Assembly: GCA_002841355.1 (NCBI GenBank)
Contig: PHFB01000013.1
Span: 1-64,000, forward strand
Length of the DNA stretch: 64,000 nt
Direction of reading: 5' to 3'
From: Actinobacteria bacterium HGW-Actinobacteria-1
GTDB lineage: Bacteria; Actinomycetota; Coriobacteriia; Anaerosomatales; Anaerosomataceae
Shown here in pieces: positions 4,851-42,507 of this stretch (position 1 is the stretch's first letter; each line of letters starts with the position of its first letter). The position numbers and the translations under genes were made by a program. Below the pieces are notes generated by a model. That model was not told the origin of the DNA and did no database searches. It saw only the letters and a list, made by a program, of their open reading frames with translations.

Positions 4851-7385
4851 CTACCCGACCACGATGCTGACGAGCTTGCCCGGCACGACAACGACCTTGC
4901 GGACCGTCTTGCCCTCGACATGCTCGGCAACCTGCTCGAGCGCGGCGTCACGCACCACGTCCTCGGTCGCATCGGCCGCGACCGTGAGACGCCCGCGAAC
5001 CTTGCCGTTCACCTGCACGGCGTACTCGATCTCATCGGAGACCGCCGCCGAGGGATCCCACGCCGGCCACGACTGCAGGTGTACCGACTCGGCCTGACCG
5101 AACACCTCGCGCCAGAGCTCCTCGGCCATATGCGGGACGTACGGCGAGAGCAAGAGCGTGAGCGTCTCGGCCACATCGCGCTCGAGAACGAGATCGCGCT
5201 GGCCAGCAGGCACCTCTCGGCGGTAGTCATACGCGGTGTTCAAGAGCTCCATCATCGCCGAGAGCGCGGTGTTGAACTGGAAGCGCTCGATATCGTCCGA
5301 GACCTTCCCGACGACCCGGTGACGCTCGCGGCGCAGCAGCTTGCCCGCCGCATCGCTTGCGGGAACGCCAGACGCACCGGACGCGGTCTCCTCGGCAACC
5401 TCGGTGATGTAGCGCCACGCCCTGCCGAGGAACCGCCACATGCCGTCGAGGCCCTCATTGCTCCACTCGAGGTCCTTGTCCGGCGGCGCCATGAACAGGA
5501 TGTACGCGCGCAGTGTGTCGGCGCCGTACTTCGCGATGATCTCCTCGGGCGCGACGACGTTGCCGCGCGACTTACTCATCGTGGCACCGTCGAGCTTCAC
5601 CATGCCCTGCGTGAGCAGATTCGTGAACGGCTCGGCGAAGCTCACGAGGCCCATGTCGCGATAGACCTTCGTGAAGAAGCGCGAGTAGAGCAGGTGCAGG
5701 ATCGCGTGCTCGATGCCGCCGATGTACTGGTCGACCGGCATCCAGTAGTCGGTCTTCGCCGGATCCCAGATCGCGTCGTCATTGCGCGCGTCGCAGTAGC
5801 GCAGGTAGTACCAGCTCGAGCAGGTGAACGTGTCCATCGTGTCGGTCTCACGCCGGGCGGCGCCGCCGCATTTCGGGCACGTAGTCTCGTAGAACTCGGG
5901 GTGGTCAGCCAGCGTCTCGCCCTTGGTGACGTCGACGTCCATGGGAAGCATGACCGGCAGGTCAGCCTCGGGGACGGGCACGAGCCCGCACGACGGGCAG
6001 TGGATCGCCGGGATCGGGTTGCCCCAGTAGCGCTGCCGGCTGATGAGCCAGTCGCGCAGGCGGAAGTTGATGCTGAAGCGGCCCTGGCCGCGCTCGGCAA
6101 GCCACTCGGTGACGGCCTTCATGCCCTCGCTCGCCTTGCCGCCGCGCATGCCGGTGAACGCGCCCGACTGCACCATCACGCCGGGGCCCGCGTAGGCGAC
6201 CTCCCACGGCACGTCAGCCTGGAGGCGCTCCTTCACGCCGGCAAGCTCGTTCAGCAGCTCCGTGTCGTCATCGGCAACAACGACCGGCGGAATCGCCAAG
6301 CCATACTTGCGCGCGAAGTCGAAGTCGCGCTGGTCGCCGCTCGGCACAGCCATGACCGCGCCGGTGCCGTACTCCATGAGCACGTAGTCGCTGACCCAGA
6401 CCGGCACCTTCTCGCCGTTGACCGGGTTCATCACATAGCGACCGGTGAACGCGCCGCGCTTCTCCTTGTCGGCCGAGGAACGGTCGATCGCAGATTCCTT
6501 CGCAGCAGCGGTGACAACATCCATCACGGCCGCTTCGTACTCTGTGCCCGAGACGAACTCCTTCACGAGCGGGTGCTCGGGCGCGAGCAGGAAGAAGCTG
6601 CAGCCGAAGAGCGTGTCGGGACGCGTTGTGAACACGGTGATAGTGGTCTCGGTCGGCTCGCCGGCGACGTCGCAGAGCGTGAAGTCGACCTCAGCGCCTT
6701 CGCTGCGACCGATCCAGTTCGCCTGCATCGCCTTCACGCGCTCGGGCCAGCCGGGCAGCTCGTCGAGATCGTCGAGGAGCTCCTGGGCGTACTCGGTGAT
6801 CTTGAGGAAGTACTGCTCCAGCTCGCGCTTCTCAACGATGCTCTTGCAGCGCCAGCACGTGCCGTCGGCGAGCACCTGCTCGTTGGCGAGGACAGTCTTG
6901 CAGCCCGGGCACCAGTTCACCGGCGAGCTCTTGCGCTCCACCAGGCCACGCTCCCAGAACTTCAGGAACGTCCACTGTCCCCAGCGGTAGTACTCCGGAT
7001 CGCACGTGCGGACCGTACGGTCCCAGTCGTAGCTGAAGCCCATGCGCCGGAAGCTCGCCGCCTGCTTCTCGATGTTCGCATACGTCCACTTGGCTGGATG
7101 CGAGTTGCTCTTGATCGCAGCGTTCTCGGCGGGAAGGCCGAACGCGTCCCAGCCGATCGGGTGCAGAACGCTCATGCCGCGCATCGTGAAGTACCGCGCG
7201 ACGACGTCACCGATGGAGTAGTTGCGCACGTGTCCCATGTGGATGTCGCCGGAAGGGTACGGGAACATCTCCAGCACGTATTTCTTGGGCTTGGAGGCGT
7301 CCTCGGTTACCGAGTAGAGCCCTGCGGCGTCCCACTCGGCCTGCCACTTCTCTTCGATGGAATGCGGGTCATACGAACGTGACAC
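4851..7385 (-). CDS. leuS: Leucyl-tRNA synthetase
   Basis: 844 aa, full length for bacterial LeuRS. The HIGH-type motif is in PYPSGDIHMGHVRNY near residue 42 and KMSKS is TMSKSRGN near residue 603. A zinc-type cysteine module (WCPGCKTVLANEQV...CWRC) and the CP1 editing insertion lie between them, and the anticodon-binding and C-terminal domains are present (EEIEYAVQVNGKVRGRLTV). It charges tRNA-Leu in the cytosol. The start is a GTG at 7385 with GGAGG at 7391-7395. The 107-base region upstream is too short for a T-box leader and none was seen. Confidence 0.97.
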   Translation of the reverse strand: MSRSYDPHSIEEKWQAEWDAAGLYSVTEDASKPKKYVLEMFPYPSGDIHMGHVRNYSIGDVVARYFTMRGMSVLHPIGWDAFGLPAENAAIKSNSHPAKWTYANIEKQAASFRRMGFSYDWDRTVRTCDPEYYRWGQWTFLKFWERGLVERKSSPVNWCPGCKTVLANEQVLADGTCWRCKSIVEKRELEQYFLKITEYAQELLDDLDELPGWPERVKAMQANWIGRSEGAEVDFTLCDVAGEPTETTITVFTTRPDTLFGCSFFLLAPEHPLVKEFVSGTEYEAAVMDVVTAAAKESAIDRSSADKEKRGAFTGRYVMNPVNGEKVPVWVSDYVLMEYGTGAVMAVPSGDQRDFDFARKYGLAIPPVVVADDDTELLNELAGVKERLQADVPWEVAYAGPGVMVQSGAFTGMRGGKASEGMKAVTEWLAERGQGRFSINFRLRDWLISRQRYWGNPIPAIHCPSCGLVPVPEADLPVMLPMDVDVTKGETLADHPEFYETTCPKCGGAARRETDTMDTFTCSSWYYLRYCDARNDDAIWDPAKTDYWMPVDQYIGGIEHAILHLLYSRFFTKVYRDMGLVSFAEPFTNLLTQGMVKLDGATMSKSRGNVVAPEEIIAKYGADTLRAYILFMAPPDKDLEWSNEGLDGMWRFLGRAWRYITEVAEETASGASGVPASDAAGKLLRRERHRVVGKVSDDIERFQFNTALSAMMELLNTAYDYRREVPAGQRDLVLERDVAETLTLLLSPYVPHMAEELWREVFGQAESVHLQSWPAWDPSAAVSDEIEYAVQVNGKVRGRLTVAADATEDVVRDAALEQVAEHVEGKTVRKVVVVPGKLVSIVVG

Positions 7386-7492: not shown

Positions 7493-10400
7493 CTAGTGAC
7501 AGGCACAGCCCGCTTCAGCGGCAGCGTGCGCGTAGGTCGCAGTGTGACCCTTGTGGCACAGCAGACAGTTGTCGGCGTCCGAGATGTCGTGCGCGGAGTC
7601 GTGACCGCCTGGTTCGTACTTCTGCACGTAGTGGCACCAGCAGCCGCCGTACCCGTCATCGTGCCACTCGTATGCAGTGCCCTGGTGGCACGTCTTACAC
7701 AGATTCGACATCGTCGTGCCTGTCGTGATCGTGGGCACGCTCTGGCCGTTCACGACGCTCGGGAAGTGGTTGATGCTTCCGCTCCCGTGCGTGTCGTGGC
7801 ACGTCGAACACGGAATCGCACTCTGTCCGCGCGAATACGGAGCTTTGAGACCAGCGCTGCCGAATCCGGCACCCGCCTTCGCGCCGTGGACATCACCCGT
7901 GGAGAGGTTCCATGTAGCACCGATGTTCCCGATACCCGCCGGGAAGACGACGCCTGCAGGTGCTGCCCCGTCATGGCACCGCAGGCAGAACTCCTGCGAA
8001 AGCGACCCGACACCTTTCGAGACCGTGGCGTCAGACGCGATCTGGACGCGCGTGACCTGTACCCACGTGCCGGTCAGCGGGTTCCAGAGCGACACGGATG
8101 TCGGATAGCCGGGCGTCGGCTCGCCGTGTCCATTCCACGAGAAGGTGATGCTCTTGATTTCCGAGACCGCAATCGCGCCCAGGTCGAATCTCATGACCTG
8201 CCAGTTCCAGCGCGTGTCGCCGGTCGCCAGATTCGTCCGCCAGTAGCTTCCGTCGTCAGCGGTGAGGCTGGCGATCGAACTCGCGCTGACGGGGGCTCCC
8301 GGCGCTGAAGGCGTGGGCTTGGCCGTCTCGGCCGATTCGCTCTCCCATCCCGCCGCGACCGACACCGTCGTCTCGGTCCCGTCGTTCCGAACGACCTTCG
8401 CGTAGAATTGATCGCTGTCGACCGAGAACGTGTCTTCCAACAACGGCGCCCATGCGTCGGCGTGGTATTCGCCGAACGCCACGCGCGTCGGGCTCCCGGT
8501 ATCCTTCGGCTGCGTGTGGTAGGTCGCGAACGTCGCGGCGCGAGCCGACTCGGCGCTCGATGCGCTTGCAACGAAGGAGATGCTCTCCTTCGTGCGCGTG
8601 TTCCACTCGGCCTGGTACGCCACGTGCTCCGCGTCATCGGGATAGTGCTCGCTGGCGGGATACGGATAGTTGCTCATGGCCGAGAACGGCAACGGGGCAA
8701 CCGTCCTGGGAACGTCGGTGTTGAGGTCCTTGTAGTAGCCATCCGCGAACACGACGTAGGCCCTCGCGGTGCCCGCCGCAGGCTCCTCTGGAACGTCGAA
8801 CCGCAAGACGATCTCATCGCCGCCACCGTAGATCACGAACTTGTCATCCGTGGTGTCAAGCAGTGGACCGACCTCGCCATAGCGGGTGTAGTCGCCGGGG
8901 AAGTAGCCGGCGAACCCGTTCGCCGCGCCGTACACATACTCGTAGATGTCGGTCTCTGATGACTTCGCATCGCTCCCGTGCTGGCGCAGCTCTGCCGAGG
9001 CACGCGTGACCTCCGTGACGTTCAACGGCTCGTCGGCCGTCGTGTCCAGCTTCACCGAATCGACGTACGTCTTGAGCAGGAACGTCAGGCGCACACGATA
9101 ATCGTCGGTGAGGAACTTGCCCGTGAGATCGAGCATGTACGGTCGGGCGAACTCGGCAGGCTTCGGCCACTCCCCTGGCAGCGCGACCCAGTTGCCATTG
9201 CCATCGAGCACTTCGACCTTCTGTCGAACGCCAGCGGTGCCGAGAATCTTGCCGTCATCGGTCTTGGGGAATCGCGACATTCCCTGGAAGACGAGCTTGA
9301 TCGCCTCGGCATCAGACAGATCACCAAGGTCGAGCTCGATCGACTCGTACCCCGGCAACTCCTGGTCGGGTGAGAGCGTCGCGTACACGCCGTCGTTCTC
9401 AGCGATCGCCGCGAGCACGTCCTCGCCGGTCTTCACCCGGGTAGCTGAGACAGGCTGCTGCAGGGTCGAACTCACTGTATGGATAACGTCATCGATCGGC
9501 TGATAGGTGCCCCCTTGCGGGATCTTCTCGGCCACGACCGTCCGGCCTTCGGGCACGTCCACCGCGAAGAGCTTGAACGTATCGAGGTAATCGGTCTCGA
9601 ACCGCTCCTCGACAAGCCTCAACTCGAAGGCACCATCGAGCACGGCGGGCGTGTTGTGCAAGACGTAGTAGTCATTCGGGTTCGGCTTCTGGTACGTGCC
9701 GTTCGCGCGTTGGCTGGCAAGCTTGCTCGTCGTGTAGAGGTCGGCTTCGTAGTCGAAGTCGGTGCCGTTCCATGTGAACAGGAACGGGCACGATCCGCTG
9801 TCGATGTACGGTGCACTCGTCACCTCGAAGCTATCAAGCGCCGACCACGCCGAGACCGCCTGCTGGTCGACTGCGTCACGAGCACGCACTCTCGCGGTGT
9901 AGCTCCCGTCGTAGAAGTACGGAGCGTACGCCGGCGTGTCGAGCCACCCCGACAGCGCGGATGTCGACGCCCAGAACTGATACTGAACGGCGTGGCCATC
10001 GGAACATGTGACCGTAGTGCTCGAGAGCCCCACCGGAATGGGACCGACGCCAGGACCCGTCACAGTCGTCAGGTCCGACATCACGGGCACGGGCGGCGGA
10101 TCGGTCACTTTGTACGTGCGGTCCTCGGAGAACCCGGTGTTGCCGAGTGCATCCGTGCTCCGCACGCGGTAGTGGTAGAGCGTCCCGGTGGTGAGCGAGC
10201 TCATCTGCACGGAGTGCGACGTTACAAGGTTGTTGTTGCCGAAAGGCGTGCCGGAGCTCGCATTGCCCAGCTCGTACGCCAGCGTGGTGCCCCAGTCGAT
10301 CCATGACGTGGACGCATCATTCAGCGTCTGCCACGTCACTGTCGGTGATGACTGGCTTGCGACGTCGGCAGTCAGCGTGAGGCCGGTGATGCTCGGCGCC

Positions 10401-13400
10401 AGTGCGTCATGACTGGCACCGACAAGCGCCCATACGCTGCCGTCAGAGGCGATGACGCTCGCGAGCGGCGACTCGATGGTCTTGGATGGGTCGTCCGGAT
10501 CCGAGAAGCGCACCTCGGCGTTGTTCGAATGCGGGTTGTGGCAATCGCCGCACGCAGTCTTGCCACCCGACGCGCGCTGATCCGAGGGCATGACATCGTG
10601 TCGGGTCCTGGCGTCGACGCCCACGGTGAAAGCCGACCGGATGTCGATGCCGGTCGTCGAGTTCGCCGCATTGTCGTGGCAGCCTCCGGTGCCATCAGCC
10701 GTGCACGTGCGCCCGTCCGCAGCGCCTCGACCACCCGCAAGGAGCTTGCCAGAGTCGGTGCCTCCGTGCGGCGCATGACACGCGGCGCACGCATTGTCCG
10801 ACGCGGTACCGACACCCGTCACCTCAAGCGCTACCACATCCGTGTTGAGCGACCGGTGGAGCACGTCGGCTTCTGCGGCCTCGACGGCCTCGTCGCCGGC
10901 CGTCGGCGTGACGAGCGCGACGACCTTGTCCCACGCGCGAACGGCGGTCGTCTTGATCCAGCTGACCGCGCTCTCGAGAACTCCCTGCTGCTGCGACGTT
11001 TCCGTCGCGATAGCCCCCACTCCCTCAACGCGCGTGTTCCACTCGGCCTGATACGCCACATGCTCGGCATCATCGGGATAGTGTTCGCTCGCAGGGTACG
11101 GGTAGTTCGACATCGCCGAGAATGGCAGCGGTTCCACCGTCTTCTCGACGTCGGTATTGAGGTCCTTGTAGTAGCCCTTCGCGTACACGACGTACGTGTG
11201 CGTCATGCCGTCCTGGGCAGGCGCGGGACGCTGGTAGCGCAGCGCGATCTCGTCACCACGACCGTAGATCACGAGCTTGTCATCCGCTCCGCTCAGCAGG
11301 GGGCCGACCTCGCCGAACCGTGTGTAGTTGCCCGGCAGGTACCCGGACTGACCGTTCGGCTCGCCGTAGACGTACTCGTAGATGTCGCCTTCTGCCGACT
11401 TCCCATCCACACCATGTCGGCGCAGCTCCGCTGAGGTCCGCTCGACTTCGGTCACCTTGAGCGGCTCATCCGCGGTCGTGTCCAGCTTCACCGAGTCCAC
11501 GTACGTCTTGAGCAAGAACGTCAGTCGCACGCGGTAGTCGTTCGTCGGGAACTTGCCCGTGAGATCGAGCATGTACGGACGCGCGAACTCTGCCGGCTTG
11601 GGCCAGTCGCCCGGCAGTGCGACCCAGTTCCCGCTGGCGTCCACGACCTCGACCTTCTGACGCACGCCCGCGGTGCCAAGTGCTTTACCCTCAGCGGTCT
11701 CCGGGAAGCGGCTCATGCCCTCGAAGACCAGCTTGATGGCGTCTGCGTCCGAAAGGTCGCCGAGGTCGAGTTCGATCGACTCGTATGCGGGCTGCTCGAC
11801 GTCGGGCGACAGCACGGCGTACACGCCGTCGCTTTCCGCGATCTGGCTCAGTACGTCCTCGCCGGTCTTGATCCTTGTCGCCGAGAGCGGCGCGCTCATC
11901 GTCGAGCTCACGGTATGGATGACGTCCTCAAGCGGCTGGTACGTGCCCCCCTGCGGGATCTTCTCGGCCACGACCGTGCGTCCCTCGGGAACGTCGACGG
12001 CGTAGAGCTTGAACGTGTCGAGGTAGTCGGTCTCGAAGCGCTCCTCGACGAGACGGAGCTCAAGCGCACCGTCCTTCTCGGTCGGCGTGTTGTCGAGAAC
12101 GTAGTAGTCGTTCGGGTTTGGCTTCTGATACGTGCCGTTCGATCGTGGGCTCGCGAGCTTGCCCGTCGTATAGAGGTCGGCCTCGTAGTCGAACTTGCTT
12201 CCGTCCCACGTGAAGAGGAACGGACAGGAGCCGGTGGCGTCGTAGATGTAGAAGCTACCCCAGTCCGAGAAACCGTAGGAGTTGCCCGCCGCGTCCCGTG
12301 CCTCGACGCGCCACGTGTAGCCACCGAGACCGAGCGTCTCATCCCGCGTGGTCGCGGTCGTCCAGTCGGTGGACGAGTAGAGCGTGCCGTCCTTATAGAG
12401 GTAGTACCGGAATTCGAACGGACCGCCGGGCGCGGCCAACGGGGCCGCCCAGTTGAACGTGCGAAGGACATCCGTGCCAAGCCACGCCGGACCGGAAGGA
12501 TACGGCGTGATCGTCGGCCTCGGAATACCCATCACGATATCGCCCGAGATGTACGAGCTGCCGTCCAGCGCGATCGAGCGCACGCGGAAATGCCACACGC
12601 CGGGTGACATGCTTGTGACGTTCACCGAGTGCGTCTGGGTGCGGGTCGCCGTGCCGGCAGTGTTCGTGTACGACGAGGTGGTGCCGTAATCCACCCAACT
12701 GCTCGTCAGGCCGGATGTGACCCAGGTGACCTGCGCGGAGTACCCGTTGAATGCCGTTATCGTCGGCCCGGAGACGAGCGCTTCGTCTCGTGAGTAGCGC
12801 GCCTTGGCCATCAGGTAGACATACCCGTCATCCCCGACATGATTGGCGGCGGACAGCGGCAGGTTCACCGATGCCTGCGTGACCATCTGCGCGCTCTGGA
12901 TCAGGTCCCATGAGCCCGTTCCTACGTTCCACGCCGAGAGCACGACCGGGAAGCCTGCCGCCTCTTCGCCGTACCCCTCCCACTGCACACGGATCGACGT
13001 CATGTCACCTCGGGCAATGGGTGCTTTGAAGCGGTACATCTGGTAGTCCCAGTCGCCGTCAACAAGCTGGAGCGACGTCACAAGTCGCGATCCGTCGCTC
13101 GTGAGCAGCGCGGCGGCGCGCGCAGCAGAGACTGGAGTCCCGGGGCTGCTCGGCGTTGGGGACACGGTGCTCTCCCACGCGGCGAATCCGGGTGGCTCAG
13201 CCAGCACCGAGATGTAGCTGATTCCCGGAGCGGTGATGTCGTTGTGTCCGGAACCGCTGAAAGCACTCGGCCCACGGTAGGAGTAGCCCGCCGGATACGT
13301 GAGCGACGCATCGTCATGGCACGTGCTACACAGCTCCTGCCCCGTTACCCGCGTGTACGACGGACCGCTGCCGGTGCCGTGCGGTTCGTGACAGCCGTCG

Positions 13401-14215
13401 CAACCGGCAGCAGCACCGGACGCACCGGGCCACGATGTCAGCGCCTTGGTGGAGCTGGTGACAGTCGAGTGCTTCTGCGCGCCAGCGGCAGACGCACCGG
13501 CATACACGCCACCGCTGTCCTGATGACAGCCGAGACACAGACCCGGCTCTCCGGAGACGGTAATGGTCGTCTGTGATTCGGTTCGAAGCGTCGAGCGGAC
13601 CAGGTCGGCATTCGACGAGGCGTGGGGCTCGTGACACGCCACGCACGCGATGCCCGCTACGCTTGCCGAGGATGTGATCGACGCATGTGGGGTGCCCTCG
13701 ATCGGCACGGCCAGATTTCCGCCTGGAAGTGCAGAACCCGAACCATGACAGGCGCCGCACACGGCCACTCCGCCCGTCGCCTCCGAGGATCCGGCACTGA
13801 GCGAGCCAGGATTGCCTTCGGTGGGACCAGCGTGAGGAGTATGGCAGTCAGCGCATTGCAGGACGCCAGTCGGAACCGGGTGCGAGCTCTTCGCAGTCGT
13901 AGTCCCGATCACGGATTCGCCGAATTCCGCCTTCGCGTCATACGTGCTGCCCGATCCGTCGTGGCAGTTGTAGCAGAGCAGCTTCTGCGACGGCGCATCT
14001 AAGATCACATCGCCCTGGGCAACGTGCAGATCGTGGCAGAGCGTGCATGAGCGGCTTGATGAGGTGTAGGCACCATGTGGGTTGGCAGCCACGGCGGGCG
14101 CAGGGATGAGAGCACAGCAGACCATGGCTACGGCCGCGACCGCGAACGTAGCGCAAATCCGACGTGCAATCCCCCCGAGCGCTGTCACTCCGTGGCGCGC
14201 AGAACCGCGTCGCAT
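7493..14215 (-). CDS. Giant secreted multiheme c-type cytochrome with duplicated beta-type domain
   Basis: 2240 aa from the ATG at 14215, chosen because GGAGG lies 9 bases upstream and a signal peptide follows at once (hydrophobic core ~20-37, cleavage after APAVA at 43). An upstream in-frame start would run into the tRNA gene. I count 14 canonical CXXCH motifs in three groups: eight in the N-terminal ~260 residues (CTLCH to CSTCH), two near 10.55-10.8 kb (CAACH, CGDCH) and four in the last ~200 residues (CLRCH, CSTCH, CKTCH, CLLCH). Non-canonical CX7CH, CWCH and a C-terminal CACH are also present. Between them lie fibronectin-III-like segments and two copies of a ~400-aa domain beginning SCPFLFTW. 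It is probably an extracellular electron-transfer protein, but no membrane anchor or sorting signal was seen. It is a single-gene unit downstream of tRNA-Ala. Confidence 0.85.
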   Translation of the reverse strand: MRRGSARHGVTALGGIARRICATFAVAAVAMVCCALIPAPAVAANPHGAYTSSSRSCTLCHDLHVAQGDVILDAPSQKLLCYNCHDGSGSTYDAKAEFGESVIGTTTAKSSHPVPTGVLQCADCHTPHAGPTEGNPGSLSAGSSEATGGVAVCGACHGSGSALPGGNLAVPIEGTPHASITSSASVAGIACVACHEPHASSNADLVRSTLRTESQTTITVSGEPGLCLGCHQDSGGVYAGASAAGAQKHSTVTSSTKALTSWPGASGAAAGCDGCHEPHGTGSGPSYTRVTGQELCSTCHDDASLTYPAGYSYRGPSAFSGSGHNDITAPGISYISVLAEPPGFAAWESTVSPTPSSPGTPVSAARAAALLTSDGSRLVTSLQLVDGDWDYQMYRFKAPIARGDMTSIRVQWEGYGEEAAGFPVVLSAWNVGTGSWDLIQSAQMVTQASVNLPLSAANHVGDDGYVYLMAKARYSRDEALVSGPTITAFNGYSAQVTWVTSGLTSSWVDYGTTSSYTNTAGTATRTQTHSVNVTSMSPGVWHFRVRSIALDGSSYISGDIVMGIPRPTITPYPSGPAWLGTDVLRTFNWAAPLAAPGGPFEFRYYLYKDGTLYSSTDWTTATTRDETLGLGGYTWRVEARDAAGNSYGFSDWGSFYIYDATGSCPFLFTWDGSKFDYEADLYTTGKLASPRSNGTYQKPNPNDYYVLDNTPTEKDGALELRLVEERFETDYLDTFKLYAVDVPEGRTVVAEKIPQGGTYQPLEDVIHTVSSTMSAPLSATRIKTGEDVLSQIAESDGVYAVLSPDVEQPAYESIELDLGDLSDADAIKLVFEGMSRFPETAEGKALGTAGVRQKVEVVDASGNWVALPGDWPKPAEFARPYMLDLTGKFPTNDYRVRLTFLLKTYVDSVKLDTTADEPLKVTEVERTSAELRRHGVDGKSAEGDIYEYVYGEPNGQSGYLPGNYTRFGEVGPLLSGADDKLVIYGRGDEIALRYQRPAPAQDGMTHTYVVYAKGYYKDLNTDVEKTVEPLPFSAMSNYPYPASEHYPDDAEHVAYQAEWNTRVEGVGAIATETSQQQGVLESAVSWIKTTAVRAWDKVVALVTPTAGDEAVEAAEADVLHRSLNTDVVALEVTGVGTASDNACAACHAPHGGTDSGKLLAGGRGAADGRTCTADGTGGCHDNAANSTTGIDIRSAFTVGVDARTRHDVMPSDQRASGGKTACGDCHNPHSNNAEVRFSDPDDPSKTIESPLASVIASDGSVWALVGASHDALAPSITGLTLTADVASQSSPTVTWQTLNDASTSWIDWGTTLAYELGNASSGTPFGNNNLVTSHSVQMSSLTTGTLYHYRVRSTDALGNTGFSEDRTYKVTDPPPVPVMSDLTTVTGPGVGPIPVGLSSTTVTCSDGHAVQYQFWASTSALSGWLDTPAYAPYFYDGSYTARVRARDAVDQQAVSAWSALDSFEVTSAPYIDSGSCPFLFTWNGTDFDYEADLYTTSKLASQRANGTYQKPNPNDYYVLHNTPAVLDGAFELRLVEERFETDYLDTFKLFAVDVPEGRTVVAEKIPQGGTYQPIDDVIHTVSSTLQQPVSATRVKTGEDVLAAIAENDGVYATLSPDQELPGYESIELDLGDLSDAEAIKLVFQGMSRFPKTDDGKILGTAGVRQKVEVLDGNGNWVALPGEWPKPAEFARPYMLDLTGKFLTDDYRVRLTFLLKTYVDSVKLDTTADEPLNVTEVTRASAELRQHGSDAKSSETDIYEYVYGAANGFAGYFPGDYTRYGEVGPLLDTTDDKFVIYGGGDEIVLRFDVPEEPAAGTARAYVVFADGYYKDLNTDVPRTVAPLPFSAMSNYPYPASEHYPDDAEHVAYQAEWNTRTKESISFVASASSAESARAATFATYHTQPKDTGSPTRVAFGEYHADAWAPLLEDTFSVDSDQFYAKVVRNDGTETTVSVAAGWESESAETAKPTPSAPGAPVSASSIASLTADDGSYWRTNLATGDTRWNWQVMRFDLGAIAVSEIKSITFSWNGHGEPTPGYPTSVSLWNPLTGTWVQVTRVQIASDATVSKGVGSLSQEFCLRCHDGAAPAGVVFPAGIGNIGATWNLSTGDVHGAKAGAGFGSAGLKAPYSRGQSAIPCSTCHDTHGSGSINHFPSVVNGQSVPTITTGTTMSNLCKTCHQGTAYEWHDDGYGGCWCHYVQKYEPGGHDSAHDISDADNCLLCHKGHTATYAHAAAEAGCACH
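8597..9799 (-). repeat. Internal duplication, copy B, within the giant cytochrome gene
   Basis: This copy encodes ~400 aa running from SCPFLFTWNG to YQAEWNTRT. It is paralogous to 11030-12231, with long identical peptide stretches (DVPEGRTVVAEKIPQGGTYQ, LPFSAMSNYPYPASEHYPDD) and visible DNA similarity. Coordinates are set by the conserved ends of the domain. Confidence 0.85.
11030..12231 (-). repeat. Internal duplication, copy A, within the giant cytochrome gene
   Basis: This is the partner of 8597-9799, about 1.2 kb long in the same orientation, encoding SCPFLFTWDG to YQAEWNTRV. The two copies are separated by ~1.2 kb that carries two CXXCH motifs, a CX7CH and an Fn3-like segment. The pattern suggests one domain-level duplication event. 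Confidence 0.85.
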
Positions 14216-14293
14216 ACGGTGGACCCTCCGTACAGCCCAGTTAATGCCGAGTAATAATCGCATCCTAACATGATGACGGTCTGTACGAACAGC

Positions 14294-14332: not shown

Positions 14333-14408
14333 TGGTGGAGCCAAGGGGGCTCGAACCCCTGACCTTCTGGCTGCCAGCCAGACGCTCTCCCAGCTGAGCT
14401 ATGGCCCC
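14333..14408 (-). tRNA. tRNA-Ala(GGC)
   Basis: The minus strand folds as a cloverleaf: acceptor GGGGCCA/TGGCTCC, D-arm AGCTCAGCTGGGAGAGC, anticodon stem TCTGG/CCAGA with loop CTGGCAG (anticodon GGC), and T-arm AGGGGTTCGAGCCCC. The acceptor has the G3:U70 pair that marks alanine tRNAs. Discriminator A is at 14336 and the CCA end is encoded at 14333-14335. Confidence 0.97.
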
Positions 14409-35357: not shown

Positions 35358-36245
35358 CTAGTCCTCTGCCGCTGCTCCGAGAGCGACCGATTCCGCCAGC
35401 GCAGTCTTGCCCGCGCCATCGACCGCGACACTGTTCGATGCCCCTGCGTACACGTCGATGCAGTTCTGCGGACAGACACTCACGCAAGTCCCGCATCCGG
35501 TGCACTTGTCGTAGTCGACGACGGCGAGCATGTCGATGACGTGGATCGCATCCTCCGGGCACTCCTTCTCGCACTTCTTGCAGGCTATACAGCACGCTGA
35601 GCACGATGCTTTGCGTTCCTTCGCCTTGTTGTGCGCATTGCATCGGACAGCAACTGGCGCATTCTCGGCGACGAGCTCGAGCAGACCTATCTGCCCCCGT
35701 GGGCATTCGCGGACACAGATGCCGCAACCGGTGCACTTCGCGATGTCGACGACAGGCAGCCCGCGTTCATCCAGGGACATCGCATCGAACGGACACGCCC
35801 GCACGCAGTCGCCGTAGCCGAAGCACCCGGAGGAGCACACAAGCGCGCCTCCCGCGAGCTTGGCCACCGCATTGCAGCTCTGCACGCCGCCATACTCATA
35901 GGACCGTGCGGCGCTGGTACCGCCCCCGCAGTGCCTGAGTGAGATCACGGCGACGACGTCACACGAGTCGGAACCCATGAGAGAGGCAACAGCCTCGGCC
36001 ACGGACTTGCCGCCGGCGACGCACGCCGTCACCGGCATGGTGCCCTCTACGATCGCCTCGGCGACCGCAAAGCATGAGGGATTCCCGCACGCGCCGCAGT
36101 TGGCGCCCGGCAGTGCAGAGGCGACCGCTTCGACGCGCGGGTCTACCTCGACATGGAATTTCCACGACGCCAACGCCAGCATCGAAGCGGCGATCACGCC
36201 AAGCGACGCCAAGGCCGCCATTGCTTTGAGGACTGTCAGAAGCAT
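35358..36245 (-). CDS. rnfB: Rnf complex subunit B, polyferredoxin
   Basis: 295 aa. An N-terminal membrane helix is followed by the 4Fe-4S domain (PGANCGACGNPSCFAVAEAI), then ferredoxin motifs (CSSGCFGYGDCVRACP, CTGCGICVRECP, CSACCIACKKCEKECP, CTGCGTCVSVCP), so about five clusters in all. RnfB takes electrons from ferredoxin and feeds the membrane part. The ATG at 36245 lies 10 bases after the rnfA stop. The C-terminal ~35 residues are Ala-rich. Confidence 0.96.
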   Translation of the reverse strand: MLLTVLKAMAALASLGVIAASMLALASWKFHVEVDPRVEAVASALPGANCGACGNPSCFAVAEAIVEGTMPVTACVAGGKSVAEAVASLMGSDSCDVVAVISLRHCGGGTSAARSYEYGGVQSCNAVAKLAGGALVCSSGCFGYGDCVRACPFDAMSLDERGLPVVDIAKCTGCGICVRECPRGQIGLLELVAENAPVAVRCNAHNKAKERKASCSACCIACKKCEKECPEDAIHVIDMLAVVDYDKCTGCGTCVSVCPQNCIDVYAGASNSVAVDGAGKTALAESVALGAAAED

Positions 36246-36255
36246 CCCAGACCCC

Positions 36256-36876
36256 CTACAGTCCGAACCAGCCGGCAAGACCTACATACGCAAGCGAGAG
36301 CAACCCGGCGGTGATGAACGACATCGGGTTGCCCTTCAGTACGCGCGGCACAGGAGCGATGTCCAAGCGCTCGCGCAAAGCGGTGAACGTGAGCAGCGCG
36401 AACCCGTAACCCACCGAGACACCCAGCGCATAGACGAGCGCCTCACCGAGTGTGTAGTTGTACGCCATCGCCATCTTGAAGAAGCCCGGTTTTGCGACTT
36501 CTGTCGCCGCGGCGAGCACGGCGCAGTTGGTCGTGATCAGCGGCAGATAGATGCCCATGGCACGGTAGAGCGCAGGACTGTACTTGCGCAGGTACATCTC
36601 AACGAACTGCACGAGCGCAGCGATGATGAGGATGAACGCCGGGATGTACAGGAACTCCCCGAGGTTCAACGGGAAGAGCAGAAACTTCCACACCAGCCAT
36701 GTCGTGGTGCTCGCCATCATCATGACGAAGATGACCGCAGCGCTCATGCCGAACGCGGTGTTCATGCTATTTGAGATGCCGAAGAAGGAACACAGGCCGA
36801 TGAAGCGCGTCAGCAAGATGTTGTTGATCAAGGCCGCGCCAACGAACAGCAGCAGGAAGTGCGAGATCGTCGCCAT
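36256..36876 (-). CDS. rnfA: Rnf complex subunit A
   Basis: 206 aa, six-helix membrane protein. It begins ISHFLLLFVGAALINNILLTRFIGLCSFFG, the RnfA/NqrE signature, with the paired cysteine regions (FIGLCSFFG and LITTNCAVL) that hold the intramembrane iron site. The ATG at 36876 has AAGGTGG upstream and is one base past the rnfE stop. Confidence 0.96.
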   Translation of the reverse strand: MATISHFLLLFVGAALINNILLTRFIGLCSFFGISNSMNTAFGMSAAVIFVMMMASTTTWLVWKFLLFPLNLGEFLYIPAFILIIAALVQFVEMYLRKYSPALYRAMGIYLPLITTNCAVLAAATEVAKPGFFKMAMAYNYTLGEALVYALGVSVGYGFALLTFTALRERLDIAPVPRVLKGNPMSFITAGLLSLAYVGLAGWFGL

Positions 36877-36877
36877 G

Positions 36878-37501
36878 TCAGGCCACCTTCCTGTCCGTTG
36901 AGCGTTCGTTGAGCCACCGGACAAATGCCACGACGAACCCGAAGAGGATGAACGCACCGGGGAACATCATGAGAATCGTCGGAGGGGCATAACCGGTCGG
37001 CATCTTGAGGATCGTGGCTCCCAGGAGCTCGATCTTGCCCGCACCGAAGAACTCGCGGATGAAAGCGAGGCCGACGAGCACCAGCGAGAAGCCGACGCCC
37101 ATTCCGAGACCGTCAGCAACCGAGAGCCACACCTTGTTGTGATACGCGAACGCCTCGGCACGACCCAAGATGATGCAGTTCACGACGATAAGCGGGATCC
37201 AGATGCCGAGAACCGCGTAGATGGGCGGGAAGAACGCCTTGAGGAAGAGATCGACGACCGTCACGAACGAAGCGATGATCACGATGAAGATCGGGATGCG
37301 CACCTGACTCGGAATCAACTTGCGCAGCACTGAGATGAGCGCATTGCTCATCACGAGCACGAAGATAACGGCTATCCCCATGAACAACGAGCCCTCGACC
37401 TGACTCGAGACTGCAAGCGTGGCGCACAGCCCGATCATCAGCACGGTCAACGGGTTGTCGATCGAAAGACCGGCCCTGAAGACCCTCAGCCACTCCTTCA
37501 T
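36878..37501 (-). CDS. rnfE: Rnf complex subunit E
   Basis: 207 aa with six helices, homologous to RnfA/NqrD. Signatures are NPLTVLMIGLCATLAVSS and WIPLIVVNCIILGRAEAFA, whose cysteines pair with those of RnfA. The start overlaps the rnfG stop by one base. Confidence 0.95.
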   Translation of the reverse strand: MKEWLRVFRAGLSIDNPLTVLMIGLCATLAVSSQVEGSLFMGIAVIFVLVMSNALISVLRKLIPSQVRIPIFIVIIASFVTVVDLFLKAFFPPIYAVLGIWIPLIVVNCIILGRAEAFAYHNKVWLSVADGLGMGVGFSLVLVGLAFIREFFGAGKIELLGATILKMPTGYAPPTILMMFPGAFILFGFVVAFVRWLNERSTDRKVA

Positions 37502-38088
37502 CAGCGCACCTCCCCTGCAGCTTTGAGTACCGCCTCGTACACCACGGAGACCGCGATCCCGCTATTCCGTACGGCACGGGATGACTTGGTGGCTCCTGAG
37601 ATCATGTCGAGCTTCTTCACGTCCTTCTCGGTGAAGCCACCTGGCAGACCTCGATACTGCTCCAGAAAGCCAGGTTCTGTCTTGATCCGCGTACCGAGAC
37701 CCGGTGTCTCGTTCATTGTCAGGATTGTAAGATCCGTGACTTTACCATCCCTATCCAGGCCCCAAACCATATCGACATAACCGCCGTACCCACGGGAACC
37801 GACCTTGAGTCCCCAGCCGATGAGCTCTCCATTGCCATCGAGCGCACGGTAGATTGCAGACACCTTGCTGTCACCGACCGCTTCCTGTGCTGAAGCGAGC
37901 ATGGCCGCATCAACGGCCTCGAAGGCATCCGCTTCGGGAAGCACGCTCTTGAGCGCGGCTTCCTCTGCGGCCTTGTCCTGCGCTGCGATGAGCGGTGCGG
38001 TGATCGTGTACGTCGCCGAGAGCCCCGCGGCGGCGGCCATGCACGTGAGTACGACCGGGATGATCAGGCGAAGCGCATTACTCTTCAT
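37501..38088 (-). CDS. rnfG: Rnf complex subunit G, flavoprotein
   Basis: 195 aa: one N-terminal helix, then an FMN-binding domain. The flavinylation motif is DMISGATKSSRAV, where the Thr would carry covalent FMN placed by ApbE. No apbE lies in the window. The start overlaps the rnfD end by 11 bases. Confidence 0.95.
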   Translation of the reverse strand: MKSNALRLIIPVVLTCMAAAAGLSATYTITAPLIAAQDKAAEEAALKSVLPEADAFEAVDAAMLASAQEAVGDSKVSAIYRALDGNGELIGWGLKVGSRGYGGYVDMVWGLDRDGKVTDLTILTMNETPGLGTRIKTEPGFLEQYRGLPGGFTEKDVKKLDMISGATKSSRAVRNSGIAVSVVYEAVLKAAGEVR

Positions 38089-39088
38089 CGGACTTCACCC
38101 ACCCGAACGTACGTGGCGTGAACATCTTGTCGATCAGTGGCGCAAGCCCGTTCATGAACAGAATCGCGAACGTTGTCGACTCAGGCGATGGGCCGAAGAA
38201 TCTTCCCACCGCGTTGAACACCCCGCACCCGATGCCGAATACCAGCTTGCCGTTCTTCGTCATCGGCGAGGAAACGTAGTCGGTGGCCATGAAGAACGCA
38301 CCCAGAAGCACGCCTCCAGCCAGGACATTGAAGATCGGATCGGAGCCGAATATCCACGAGAGCGCCGCCATGGCGCCGATGTAACCGGCGGGAATCCGCC
38401 AATCGATGATGCCCTTGGCGAGAAGCACTAGCCCACCGAGGATCAGCAGCGCAGCCGAGACCTCGCCGAGCGACCCCTCAAGGTTGCGCCACAGAAGCGG
38501 CTGATACTGAGCCGCAAGGCTGAAACCATAACCCCCTGAAGCAGCACGGTCAGCGGCTGCTACGGCGAGTCGGGTCGCGCCGCTGATCGCGTCGAGCGAT
38601 CCGGTCGCGGGAACATCGAGCGTGTGGAACCAACCCTTGTCTGACAACTTCGAAAGCACACCAGCCCACGACATCAACACGAACGCGCGACCGACAAGTG
38701 CCGGATTGAACAGGTTCCAGCCAAGTCCGCCGAAGATCATCTTTCCAAGCGCGATCGCAATGAATCCGGCGAACAAGGACATCCACCAGGGCAGCATGGG
38801 CGGCATGCACATCGCGAGCAGGACGCCGGTCACAAGCGCGCTACCATCGGAAAGCGTCTGAGGCTTCTTGGCTATCGCATTCCACGCGGCCTCGGTGGCA
38901 AGCGCGGAGCCGATACACAGCGTGAAGACCAGCACCGCAGGCCAGCCGATGCTGATCATCGACCAGATAGCTGCCGGTGCAAGTGCCGCGACGACCCAGA
39001 GCATGATATTGGTACACGTCGTCGGCGCGACAATGTGCGGCGACGATGCGACCGAGAGTCGCGTCGTTCCCTCATTCATCTCGGTCAC
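38078..39088 (-). CDS. rnfD: Rnf complex subunit D
   Basis: 336 aa, about ten helices. The covalent FMN motif is SLDAISGATRLAVAA, and FGGLGWNLFNPALVGRAF is a conserved RnfD/NqrB helix segment. The GTG at 39088 overlaps the rnfC stop by four bases and has GGGGGC at good distance; an ATG three codons later is possible. The frame extends further upstream inside rnfC, which was rejected. Confidence 0.95.
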   Translation of the reverse strand: MTEMNEGTTRLSVASSPHIVAPTTCTNIMLWVVAALAPAAIWSMISIGWPAVLVFTLCIGSALATEAAWNAIAKKPQTLSDGSALVTGVLLAMCMPPMLPWWMSLFAGFIAIALGKMIFGGLGWNLFNPALVGRAFVLMSWAGVLSKLSDKGWFHTLDVPATGSLDAISGATRLAVAAADRAASGGYGFSLAAQYQPLLWRNLEGSLGEVSAALLILGGLVLLAKGIIDWRIPAGYIGAMAALSWIFGSDPIFNVLAGGVLLGAFFMATDYVSSPMTKNGKLVFGIGCGVFNAVGRFFGPSPESTTFAILFMNGLAPLIDKMFTPRTFGWVKSDEE

Positions 39089-40383
39089 AGCTTCGCCCCC
39101 TTCGCCATCGCCGCGGCCTTTGCCAATCTGATGAGTTGCAGCAGCGGTCGGCGCGTGGGGCACGAGTACGAGCACACACCGCATTCGATGCAGTCCACCG
39201 GATGGAAGAGCCCGGCACTTGTCCAGTCGCGCCGGTTCGCATGCGTGGCGATCAGGTACGGCTGCAGGAACATCGGGCACCCCTCCGAGCACCGCCCGCA
39301 GCGGATGCACGGCTGATCGCCCTCAACCAGCGGAGCGATCTCGTCAGGCCCGAATACCACAATGCCCGAAGTTCCCTTCGCAATCGGAACATCGAGGTCG
39401 GCAAGTGCGGGGCCGGTCATCGGCCCACCGGCGACGACACGGCCGACGTCACCCGAGAACCCACCGGCGTGCTCGATCAGATCGCTCACAAGCGTACCCA
39501 GAAGCACCCGGTAGTTGCCGGGGCGCGCGACCCGACCCGTGACAGTGACAACGCGCTCGGTCAGCGGCTTGCGCAACTCCACCGCATCCGCGATGGCCGC
39601 CGCAGTGGCGACGTTGTGCACCAGCGCACCGGCAGCCGCGGGGAGCTTCCCGTGCGGGACCTCGGTCTTCAGGAAAGCCCAGATCAGCTGCTTCTCAGCA
39701 CCTTGGGGGTACCGGGTCACGAGCGATCGGACCTCGATGCCCTCGCCTGCCGCTGCACGCAGCGCCGCAATCGCATCGGGCTTGTTCTCTTCAACGCCGA
39801 TAACGACGCGCTTCGCGCCGATCGTCTCGGCCATGATCTTGGCACCGGCGATCACCCGATCCGCGGACTCCACCATGAGCCGATGGTCGCAGGTGAGATA
39901 CGGCTCGCACTCGCAGCCGTTGAGGATGACGGTTCCCACGTCGACACCCTTGGGAGGACTCAACTTGACCGCAGATGGGAACGTCGCACCGCCGAGCCCC
40001 ACGATGCCGGCGCCACGAACGGTCGCCCTGACGTCGCCATCAGGCACCGGCTCGAACGACGCCAGGTCCTGCTCGGCATCCGGCGTGATGTTGACGCAGG
40101 GCACCCGCATCCCGCCTGCTGTCAGGCATGTGCCAACGGATGTGACCTCACCATCGACCGGGCTGTGAATCGGGGCACTCACCATCGCGTCGACCGAACC
40201 GATGACCTGGCCCCGGCGTACGCGGTCCCCTGCCGCAACCAGTGGCGCACACGGCGCCCCGAGGTGCTGGCTCATCGGCACGACCAGCCGCGCCGGTACC
40301 GGCATCCATTCGATCGGTAATGCTGCGGTCGCTTCCTTGTGTTCGGGCGGATGCACCCCGCCCCTGAACGCCGCCTTGCTCAA
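39085..40383 (-). CDS. rnfC: Rnf complex subunit C, NADH-side subunit
   Basis: 432 aa. A family-typical N-terminus (FRGGVHPPEHKEAT), NADH/FMN fold (GAGIVGLGGATFPSAVKLSPP) and SLBB segment precede two 4Fe-4S motifs (CIRCGRCSEGCP, CIECGVCSYSCP). RnfC exchanges electrons with NAD(H). I chose the TTG at 40383 because GGAGG lies eight bases upstream and the residues after it match the family start; an ATG at 40461 would add 26 unrelated residues. Confidence 0.94.
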   Translation of the reverse strand: MSKAAFRGGVHPPEHKEATAALPIEWMPVPARLVVPMSQHLGAPCAPLVAAGDRVRRGQVIGSVDAMVSAPIHSPVDGEVTSVGTCLTAGGMRVPCVNITPDAEQDLASFEPVPDGDVRATVRGAGIVGLGGATFPSAVKLSPPKGVDVGTVILNGCECEPYLTCDHRLMVESADRVIAGAKIMAETIGAKRVVIGVEENKPDAIAALRAAAGEGIEVRSLVTRYPQGAEKQLIWAFLKTEVPHGKLPAAAGALVHNVATAAAIADAVELRKPLTERVVTVTGRVARPGNYRVLLGTLVSDLIEHAGGFSGDVGRVVAGGPMTGPALADLDVPIAKGTSGIVVFGPDEIAPLVEGDQPCIRCGRCSEGCPMFLQPYLIATHANRRDWTSAGLFHPVDCIECGVCSYSCPTRRPLLQLIRLAKAAAMAKGAKL

Positions 40384-40452
40384 GCGCTCACCCTCCGTCG
40401 TTGGTCGTCCTCCGTATGAAGGAACCCGATTCGCCACACGCTCGTAGCACCC

Positions 40453-40458
40453 TTTATA
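40453..40458 (-). promoter_or_regulatory. Candidate -10 element of the rnf operon
   Basis: TATAAA on the minus strand, 70 bases upstream of the rnfC start. The -35 would be a poor TTCGCG lying inside the hyd terminator hairpin, so the assignment is tentative. Confidence 0.35.
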
Positions 40459-40462
40459 CACC

Positions 40463-40504: not shown

Positions 40505-41767
40505 CTAGTGAACGGAGCAGGACAGGCACGGGTCGTACGCCCGCACCAGTTTCTCCATGCTCAGAATGAACTCGTCCTTGGGCAGATGAGCGATCGTCGG
40601 CGCGTACGCGCGCATGTCCGCTTCAAGGTTGCCAAGGTTCTGCGCGGTAGGCGTGATCACGTCACCTCCGACGACGATGCCGTCGTCATCGATGCTGTAC
40701 GCGTGGTAGAGCGTCCCCCGCGGCGCCTCGCTGGCAGCCGCCCCCGAACCTGCCTTGATCGTGAACGGCTCAGGCAGCGTCGCGCCGCCCATACCGAGCA
40801 GGCGATCGATGTACATCGCGCACCGCTCGGCGGCGTCAACGAGCTCGACGGCCTGGCAGACATTGTTCACGAATGTGTTGCGCGACGGCGCTGCTATGCC
40901 CAGCTTCGCCAGCGTCTCGGCCGCACGCGGCATGAGCTTGCCAGCCGAGAGGTTGATCCTCGGCAACGAGCCGACCATGAACGTGCGGTCGCCAACGGTG
41001 CTGTGCTTCGCATTGCTGTGGCCCACGACCTTCTCGGCGATGAACTGCCGATACTCCGAGGCGGACCGACGCCAGCCTGCATCGAGCGCCGCTGTCTCGC
41101 CGTCGTAAATCGCGTAGTCGTCGTCTTCGACGAGTGCCAGCATCTCGCCGGACGTCTCGAATGCCGGCACCTCGAATGACTGGAAGAGCTCGGCCGTGGC
41201 GACGGTGTCGGCGACGAGCGCCTCCAGGCGCACGGCCATCGCGCGCAGGTCAGCCGCGCTCGGCTCGGCCGAGAAGCCGCCCACGACCGCGGTGATCGGG
41301 TGCACGGGACGACCGCCGATGAGTGTCGTGAGGTCGTTGCCTGTCTTCTTGATGCGCAGGGCCCGCTCGACGATATCGGGGTGCGTCTGCGCGAGCGGGA
41401 ACACGCTCGGCAGCCCAACGAAGTCCGGCGCGGCGAACACGTACAGGTGCGTCGCATGGTTCTGCAGGTACGACCCGTAGACGAAGAGCTTGCGCAACAG
41501 CGCAGTCCGCTCGGATACCTCGATGCCGAACGCCGCCTCGACCGCTTTGAGCGAGGTGAGCGCATGGTTCGGCGAGCAGATGCCGCAGATGCGGCTGGTG
41601 ATAAGCGAGACCTCGTCGAAGCGGCGTCCCACTACCATGGATTCGAAGAAGCGAGCCGCCTCGATGATATCCATGCGCACGTCGCTGACGACGCCGGACT
41701 CCATCTCGACTGTTATGGTGCCGTGGCCCTCGATGCGGGCTACGTGTTCTACCGTGAGCGTGCTCAT
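40505..41767 (-). CDS. hydA: [NiFe] hydrogenase large subunit, group 3b type
   Basis: 420 aa. The N-terminal metal-ligand motif is RICGICSPNHA (~56-66) and the C-terminal one is DPCLSCSVH. It carries the NiFe active site that oxidises or forms H2. The gene ends exactly at that His (CAC TAG), so there is no C-terminal peptide to be cut off during maturation. The ATG at 41767 overlaps the hydD stop by four bases; a longer upstream frame is Arg-rich shadow sequence. Order hydB-hydG-hydD-hydA matches Pyrococcus sulfhydrogenase. Confidence 0.94.
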   Translation of the reverse strand: MSTLTVEHVARIEGHGTITVEMESGVVSDVRMDIIEAARFFESMVVGRRFDEVSLITSRICGICSPNHALTSLKAVEAAFGIEVSERTALLRKLFVYGSYLQNHATHLYVFAAPDFVGLPSVFPLAQTHPDIVERALRIKKTGNDLTTLIGGRPVHPITAVVGGFSAEPSAADLRAMAVRLEALVADTVATAELFQSFEVPAFETSGEMLALVEDDDYAIYDGETAALDAGWRRSASEYRQFIAEKVVGHSNAKHSTVGDRTFMVGSLPRINLSAGKLMPRAAETLAKLGIAAPSRNTFVNNVCQAVELVDAAERCAMYIDRLLGMGGATLPEPFTIKAGSGAAASEAPRGTLYHAYSIDDDGIVVGGDVITPTAQNLGNLEADMRAYAPTIAHLPKDEFILSMEKLVRAYDPCLSCSVH

Positions 41768-42507
41768 ACCACGACCTCCCGTGCGGCGTTGTACAGGTCG
41801 AACAGGCGATCGAGCTCGAGCGGGTCGAGGCCCTTCTCGGCGTATACCAGCCGCGCGGCCGGAATGTTCGCCTCGGGCGAGATACCACGGCAACCGGTGC
41901 ACGGGCGGCCGAGCGTCACGCACTTGGCTGTGCAGCCTGTACGGGTCACCAGACCGAGACATGCCCTGCCGCGGTCGAGGAAGCATACGTTCTCCTGCGT
42001 CTTGCAGATCGCGCACATCGGGTCCTGCGGCATGTCGTCCTTGAGGCCCATGATCGCGCGCGAGAGCACGGTCACGAACTCGGTGGGGTCGATCGGGCAT
42101 CCCGGAACGTGATAGTCCACCTTGATGACCGATGAGACCGGCTTCGGGACCTGACGCCCGCGCGCCACAGCCGCACCGTCGCCGTACACGACACCATAGC
42201 GCGCGTCGTAGTCGACCGTGCCGGCCAGCGCCGGGATACCGCCCGTCACGGCACATGAGCCGATGGCGATGACAACGGCGGCGGTTTCACGCGCCTTGAG
42301 AAGTGTCGCCACGTGGTCGGCCGTCGTGACCGCACCCTCGATGACGGCGACGTCGTATTCCTCAGGCAGATGACCGCTTGAGGCAAGTTGCCAGTACGCA
42401 AGGTCCATGAGGCCGAGAACATCCAGAAGATGGTCTTCCATGTTCGTCACCTGCACCTGGCAACCGAAATCGCTCGCCAGACCGATGATCGCTACGCGCG
42501 GCGCCAT
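41764..42507 (-). CDS. hydD: Hydrogenase small (delta) subunit
   Basis: 247 aa. The cysteine pattern of the 20-kDa complex-I/small-subunit family is present (LASDFGCQVQV, AIGSCAVTGG, VPGCPIDP) for the proximal cluster, with further cysteines (CAICKTQENVCFLDRGRACLG, CTAKCVTLGRPCTGC) for distal clusters. It relays electrons from the large subunit to the flavin module. It starts directly after the hydG stop. Confidence 0.93.
   Translation of the reverse strand: MAPRVAIIGLASDFGCQVQVTNMEDHLLDVLGLMDLAYWQLASSGHLPEEYDVAVIEGAVTTADHVATLLKARETAAVVIAIGSCAVTGGIPALAGTVDYDARYGVVYGDGAAVARGRQVPKPVSSVIKVDYHVPGCPIDPTEFVTVLSRAIMGLKDDMPQDPMCAICKTQENVCFLDRGRACLGLVTRTGCTAKCVTLGRPCTGCRGISPEANIPAARLVYAEKGLDPLELDRLFDLYNAAREVVV

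Follow-up and report, generated by a model that had tools for sequence, protein, structure and literature searches.

A predicted giant multiheme cytochrome of the Anaerosomatales with three separated heme modules and recombining SCPF domains

In the present study, we analysed a window of 64,000 nucleotides (contig PHFB01000013.1 of the subsurface organism Actinobacteria bacterium HGW-Actinobacteria-1), in which one gene encodes a giant multiheme cytochrome whose heme-binding motifs lie in three modules. This three-module layout is kept across the order, which indicates that it is a real feature. Judged by comparison of the sequences, the SCPF domain found between the modules is a recombining cassette that has been copied within the protein and swapped between families. 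The reading that we favour, at a probability of about one half, is a surface or extracellular cytochrome for extracellular electron transfer (EET), with separate heme islands and with SCPF cassettes for recognition or adhesion; heme loading, location, electron transfer, docking and cassette function are here inferred.

Results

The gene is a single ORF (7493-14215, minus strand; Table 1). Its ATG at 14215, with GGAGGG 8 nt upstream, is a better start than the ATG at 14263, and a longer reading from the TTG at 14344 starts inside the tRNA-Ala(GGC) gene. When ORF, start and motif positions were derived again, a protein of 2240 aa with a signal peptide and 14 CXXCH motifs grouped as 8, 2 and 4 was obtained, as the earlier note on this DNA had described. 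The motifs lie at residues 57, 81, 121, 153, 191, 227, 272 and 296, at 1143 and 1222, and at 2077, 2136, 2173 and 2217. Chance was ruled out as their source by shuffling of the protein, which gave a mean of 0.017 CXXCH and a maximum of 1 in 2000 shuffles. The Pfam scan returned Paired_CXXCH_1 (E=2e-29) and the Fn3-like Pur_ac_phosph_N (E=1e-6), and both profiles of the paired-CXXCH family scored above their cut-offs (PF09699, 101 bits versus 20.6; TIGR01905, 71 versus 25). These motifs and scores, together with the export signal (judged by eye) and the maturation genes of the genome, mark the protein as a putative member of the paired-CXXCH multiheme c-type cytochromes; it falls below the whole-protein cut-offs of the DmsE and GSU2203 decaheme families (62 versus 192 bits and 37 versus 325 bits). 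Signal peptides were recognised by eye in the orthologues too. Neither a lipobox nor a C-terminal anchor was seen by eye in the sequence, the chain ends in CACH without a hydrophobic segment, and no surface anchor was identified.

Beyond the 14 CXXCH motifs, three further heme-like sites were found that had been missing from the earlier note, namely CTADGTGGCH (residue 1171), CWCH (2192) and CACH (2237). Both cysteines and the histidine of the first site are kept in 16 of 16 sequences, two of them with CX6CH spacing, and the conserved HDV motif that follows it may supply the distal His ligand in module 2. The terminal CACH lines up with a CH at the chain end, which in three orthologues forms the last part of a full CXXCH. 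Since heme binding by CX15CH and by the contracted CKCH is known from other proteins (PMC7096707), a loading of 14-17 hemes per giant cytochrome is possible. A literature search for CX7CH heme sites gave only an Fe-S paper.

The chain is ordered as heme(8)-jelly roll-Fn3-Fn3-SCPF, heme(2 plus CX7CH)-Fn3-Fn3-SCPF and jelly roll-heme(4 plus CWCH and CACH), and each gap between heme groups holds an Fn3-like pair, a 405-aa SCPF domain as its largest block and one jelly-roll-like domain. The SCPFLFTW and Fn3-like domains that had been reported were recovered, with SCPFLFTW at residues 663 and 1475 and the Pur_ac_phosph_N match for Fn3. The spacers are made of beta domains, as proposed, but the length of about 400 aa given to them has to be revised: the heme groups are separated by 847 and 855 aa, and 405 aa is the SCPF domain alone. 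By within-protein alignment, the two halves are related at the jelly rolls (42%, z 14) and at the first Fn3 domains (36%, z 8) and weakly at the second Fn3 domains (z 2.3), and the heme modules did not align to each other above noise. The jelly-roll label is based on strand prediction together with a GH114_assoc match below threshold.

The full-chain structure prediction that had been proposed was run with AlphaFold on two overlapping pieces. The beta-domains were mostly confident (pLDDT largely 70-90), but the heme modules mostly stayed below 50 and the pTM was 0.37 and 0.41 for the two pieces; the arrangement of domains and the distance between modules in the models are therefore of low confidence, and the chain could fold back. 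Foldseek on the models matched mainly tandem Fn3/Ig proteins.

Table 1. Positions of the giant cytochrome gene, its parts and neighbours in the window, and of the heptaheme paralogues elsewhere in the genome
Feature	Position	Strand	Basis or remark
tRNA-Ala(GGC), immediate upstream neighbour	14333..14408	minus	sequence
Ribosome-binding site GGAGGG	14224-14229	minus	8 nt upstream of ATG 14215
Giant multiheme cytochrome CDS	7493..14215	minus	2240 aa, about 246 kDa at 110 Da per residue
N-terminal signal peptide	14084..14215	minus	cleavage after ...PAPAVAA placed by eye
Heme module 1, eight CXXCH (residues 57-300), paired-CXXCH type	13232..14080	minus	profile match; motifs
Jelly-roll-like beta domain 1	12809..13156	minus	sub-threshold GH114_assoc match; 42% identical to second copy
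Fn3-like domain a1	12518..12796	minus	predicted model and Foldseek; 36% identical to a2
Fn3-like domain b1	12239..12517	minus	predicted model and Foldseek
SCPF domain, cassette copy 1, 405 aa, no Pfam family	11024..12238	minus	sequence comparison
Heme module 2: CXXCH, CX7CH, CXXCH and conserved HDV motif	10478..10828	minus	motifs, orthologue alignment
CTADGTGGCH, non-standard CX7CH site	10676..10705	minus	between the two CXXCH of module 2
Fn3-like domain a2	10109..10426	minus	Pur_ac_phosph_N match; predicted model
Fn3-like domain b2	9803..10108	minus	predicted model and Foldseek
SCPF domain, cassette copy 2	8588..9802	minus	80% identical to copy 1 (protein)
Jelly-roll-like beta domain 2	8039..8323	minus	predicted model; 42% identical to copy 1
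Heme module 3: four CXXCH, CWCH and terminal CACH	7496..8026	minus	motifs, orthologue alignment
CWCH, contracted motif	7631..7642	minus	aligns with CXXCH or CX3CH in orthologues
leuS, immediate downstream neighbour	4851..7385	minus	locus comparison
Heptaheme paralogue loci	L165:5855-8267, L168:6099-7307, L169:5872-7068, L164:7355-9824, L170:6918-8264

A search with the SCPF domain found it in 18 of 61 genomes of the same order, own included. In one of these (G048), the only SCPF proteins are distant and heme-free, so that 17 of 61 genomes, own again included, have a homologue of the giant cytochrome, complete or in part. Nine homologues are complete in a single frame (G000, G001, G004, G005, G012, G015, G017, G021 and G038) and a tenth (G039) has 8/2/6 hemes; together they have 7-8, 2 and 4-6 hemes, with gaps of 829-897 aa. 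The remaining homologues are truncated at contig ends, carry a frameshift (G003, G009) or are without the first unit (G006). The G003 homologue (L069:3312-9852) is read in two overlapping frames, either a frameshift or an assembly error, and its second SCPF domain belongs to a divergent type. Across the class (398 genomes), matches were confined to the same order, Anaerosomatales (OPB41; 19 genomes).

The gene order rsfS-EamA-giant-leuS-comEA-comEC is common to G004, G003, G001, G015 and G038, the last from another family, and tRNA-Ala(GGC) precedes the giant gene in genomes with this arrangement. Where the gene is missing from the site, tRNA-Ala(GGC) stands near leuS (gap of about 165 bp in G002, of the same genus). 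Because of these empty sites, comparison of the loci indicates that the giant gene is gained or lost as a unit beside the tRNA. Most relatives lack the gene, one of the same genus among them, so it is dispensable. The gene is not in an operon with electron-transfer genes. An Rnf cluster (35358-40461; C, D, G, E, A, B; complete-looking) lies beside a group-3b/sulfhydrogenase-type NiFe hydrogenase (40505-44390); the earlier note had placed the cytochrome in this setting, and both clusters are indeed in the window, but at 21 kb or more from the giant gene the link was not upheld.

Giants linked to a heptaheme gene were seen in G006, G009, G012, G017, G021 and G028, with 7/2/5 hemes where complete. 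They are homologous to the window protein across the heme, Fn3-like and SCPF regions (48% over 2236 aa in G012), but have an extra N-terminal part of about 400 aa and the adjoining heptaheme gene, and they lie at a different position, beyond holA, where this was seen (G012, G017).

The SCPF domain, of about 400 aa with a conserved Cys-Pro near its start, was confirmed in 502 stretches. In the proposed comparison with profile and structure databases, there was no Pfam match above cut-off among 28 members and the best PDB profile match had E=0.96; Foldseek gave tandem Fn3/Ig-like matches only. It was thus rejected as a known domain, and a weak, below-cut-off Nqo15 match was dismissed. Heme-free SCPF domains occur in many phyla, including FG-GAP/ASPIC/TPR and beta-helix proteins (L118, L123, L113 and other loci). 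Multihemes of Desulfuromonadaceae, Geobacteraceae, Nitrospirota and others (L093, L100, L102, L103, L104) resemble the window protein in having a heme region followed by an SCPF domain, 45-51% identical to that of the window; these uncharacterised proteins differ in having a single heme cluster and a single SCPF domain, with no 8/2/4 grouping.

By DNA self-comparison, the two SCPF copies are 100% identical over 1234 bp in G012 and 99.84% identical over 1265 bp in G009. In both, the tract starts three codons before the domain and stops shortly past it, and the flanking protein is only 20-33% identical. The two G000 copies are 80% identical as protein. Between G000 and G028, which belongs to another family, identity is 72-73% in both SCPF domains and 19-48% in every other region, whereas the SCPF domains of G000 and the same-genus G001 share 51% and 34%. 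In G003, the second SCPF domain is 74% like that of G006 and 36% like that of G000, although the modules next to it are mostly G000-like. The flank tree groups G000, G003 and G004 with G005 and G015 (99% SH-aLRT); the SCPF tree conflicts with it, and forcing the flank grouping on the SCPF tree was rejected (p-AU 1e-68), as was a clade of all first copies (p-AU 1e-7). The groups were picked after the identity table had been seen, which makes these p-values descriptive; the likelihood differences of 201 and 883 log units for the two constraints are the stronger evidence. Stronger purifying selection was rejected as the source of the high identity, because the SCPF identities agree with neither kinship nor the flank tree and entire tracts match letter for letter in the DNA. 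Assembly chimerism is unlikely on the sequences at hand, since G028, G043 and G033 are separate assemblies in agreement.

The host genome is 98% complete. The search for cytochrome c maturation genes found ccmE-ccmF-ABC(ccmA)-ccmB-ccmC(-type), another CcsA-type gene, ResB with CcsA, a further CcsA-type gene and a second CcmF, by which the absence of a maturation system was rejected. System I (Ccm) and System II (ResB/CcsA) lie at L175:2365-8382 and L177:15013-17210, and the second CcmF at L167:8582-10705. It is possible that the dual systems are specialised for unusual heme motifs. Besides the giant gene, at least 33 ORFs contain three CXXCH or more, a lower bound that covers the regions around Paired_CXXCH matches, and several of them have split clusters (3+5+3, 6+9, 8+5). 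A 1321-aa cytochrome with heme groups 3+5+3 (L164:2087-6049) is close to a heptaheme, and its region 145-514 shares 52% identity with the N-terminal part found in those giants of relatives that are linked to a heptaheme gene; the 6+9 and 8+5 proteins are large split-cluster cytochromes (L171:8306-12529 and L174:3519-6659). The same genome has seven paralogous heptahemes of about 400 aa with CLNCHxxxxLP-like tails, two in tandem and one counting 8 CXXCH. As solved nanowire subunits they were rejected (no sequence match, no convincing solved relative); they are possible docking partners or filament subunits. Neither Omp85 nor SLH domains were found in the genome, which gives no sign of an outer membrane and is consistent with a monoderm wall.

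Discussion

We propose that this Anaerosomatales multiheme c-type cytochrome would be exported by Sec to the surface or the extracellular space and probably matured by the Ccm/Ccs systems of the genome. Two runs of Fn3-like, jelly-roll-like and SCPF domains, each about 850 aa long, would separate its three heme modules (8, 2-3 and 4-6 hemes). Electrons most likely move inside a module, and between modules via docking partners such as the many smaller multihemes of the genome; one continuous heme wire would be a less likely route than partner-bridged modules. The two SCPF domains would serve as recognition or adhesion cassettes, homogenised by gene conversion within the protein and exchanged across lineages. 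By a rough estimate from typical Fn3 size, the gaps would reach up to 150-200 angstrom if extended, far past tunnelling range, and therefore partners or folding must bridge the modules. The long wire suggested earlier is not supported, as the same gaps probably block direct tunnelling from one group to the next unless the chain bends back on itself, and a continuous nanowire is not supported by the spacing of the heme groups. The scaffold, which the earlier note had named as the other option, may apply and comes near to the reading favoured here. Set beside the OmcS, OmcE and OmcZ nanowires, whose subunits polymerise with a continuous heme chain, the protein has three groups of hemes at intervals of about 850 aa, and PDB cytochrome matches were weak (best E=0.04). 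Among relatives, EMTCatB1, which has a homologue, is the dominant organism of a biocathode, and its strongly expressed genes include multihemes (PMC7943316); Fe(III) reduction is known for a member of the order (PMC9686372).

If the beta-domains looped out, the three modules could pack into a continuous wire of 14-17 hemes crossing the wall in a single protein. The near-constant module spacing and the duplication of the jelly-roll-like domain near both outer heme modules could favour such a closed form, but no confident packing between modules was obtained at the pTM values given above. The main structural match is to tandem Fn3 domains, which usually form extended rods. Single-protein conduits have been proposed for the S-layer multiheme cytochromes (MHCs) of ANME archaea (PMC9012536); for the present protein we consider a folded-back conduit unlikely.

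It is likewise improbable that the protein is first of all an adhesin or receptor, binding minerals, polysaccharide or partner cells via its SCPF, jelly-roll-like and Fn3-like domains, with accessory hemes that store or sense electrons. About three quarters of the protein is heme-free, the SCPF domain has the heme-free occurrences described above, and the exchange of cassettes resembles that of recognition domains. However, all eight CXXCH of module 1, including their histidines, are invariant in alignment A2, which suggests that the redox function matters. A surface electron buffer without a dedicated partner, or an OcwA-like terminal reductase of a soluble acceptor, would fit the many hemes on one chain and the multifunctional OcwA of Gram-positives (PMC7096707), but is very unlikely, as the PDB search gave no match to OcwA or other characterised reductases (none so named up to E=1 with phmmer) and the Pfam scan no enzyme-like module.

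In the partner-bridged surface cytochrome that we favour, the SCPF cassettes probably contact something variable. A bolder extension, which is possible but rather doubtful, is that through lineage exchange and two-site copying the cassettes form a diversifying recognition system, which would redirect the electron-transfer protein to other minerals, matrices or partner cells, with vertical inheritance of the heme modules, and that module 2 also binds heme via an unreported CX6-7CH.

Giant cytochromes with non-heme domains are already known: in ANME MHCs and in OetF, hemes occur together with sizeable non-heme domains (PMC9012536, PMC10553843). With these and the split-cluster cytochromes of the same genome as precedents, the new layout that the earlier note had read from separated heme groups was too strong a claim. 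Like the window protein, ANME MHC types A, B and C are giant, with many hemes and large non-heme domains (S-layer, pectin-lyase-like), and are proposed for electron transfer through the envelope; unlike it, they are archaeal, with S-layer or pectin-lyase domains and 20-80 or more hemes, and types A and B have a C-terminal transmembrane helix (PMC9012536). SCPF is not mentioned for them, and they are set apart here by the published description and not by sequence (PMC9012536). OcwA and other Gram-positive multihemes share with the window protein its inferred role as monoderm surface EET cytochromes (PMC6703420, PMC7829351), but the Gram-positive surface multihemes are smaller, with heme-stained bands of 40-120 kDa (PMC7829351). 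OetF of syntrophic sulfate reducers, also a cytochrome c with fibronectin domains and a proposed role in matrix or partner binding, belongs, by description only, to a diderm porin-cytochrome system (PMC10553843). Fast evolution and exchange of whole cytochromes have been reported in Geobacter (PMC12977616). In the literature searched, we did not find an order-wide three-module layout, a conserved CX6-7CH, or gene conversion and swapping confined to a domain.

Conclusion

The passage of electrons across the thick monoderm wall is poorly understood, and few iron- and electrode-linked bacteria have been studied as little as the Anaerosomatales; the conserved three-module cytochrome offers a defined target in them. 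The SCPF domain is common in many phyla, yet has no Pfam model match. Recombination of the cassettes suggests that the contacts of a surface cytochrome evolve separately from its redox core.
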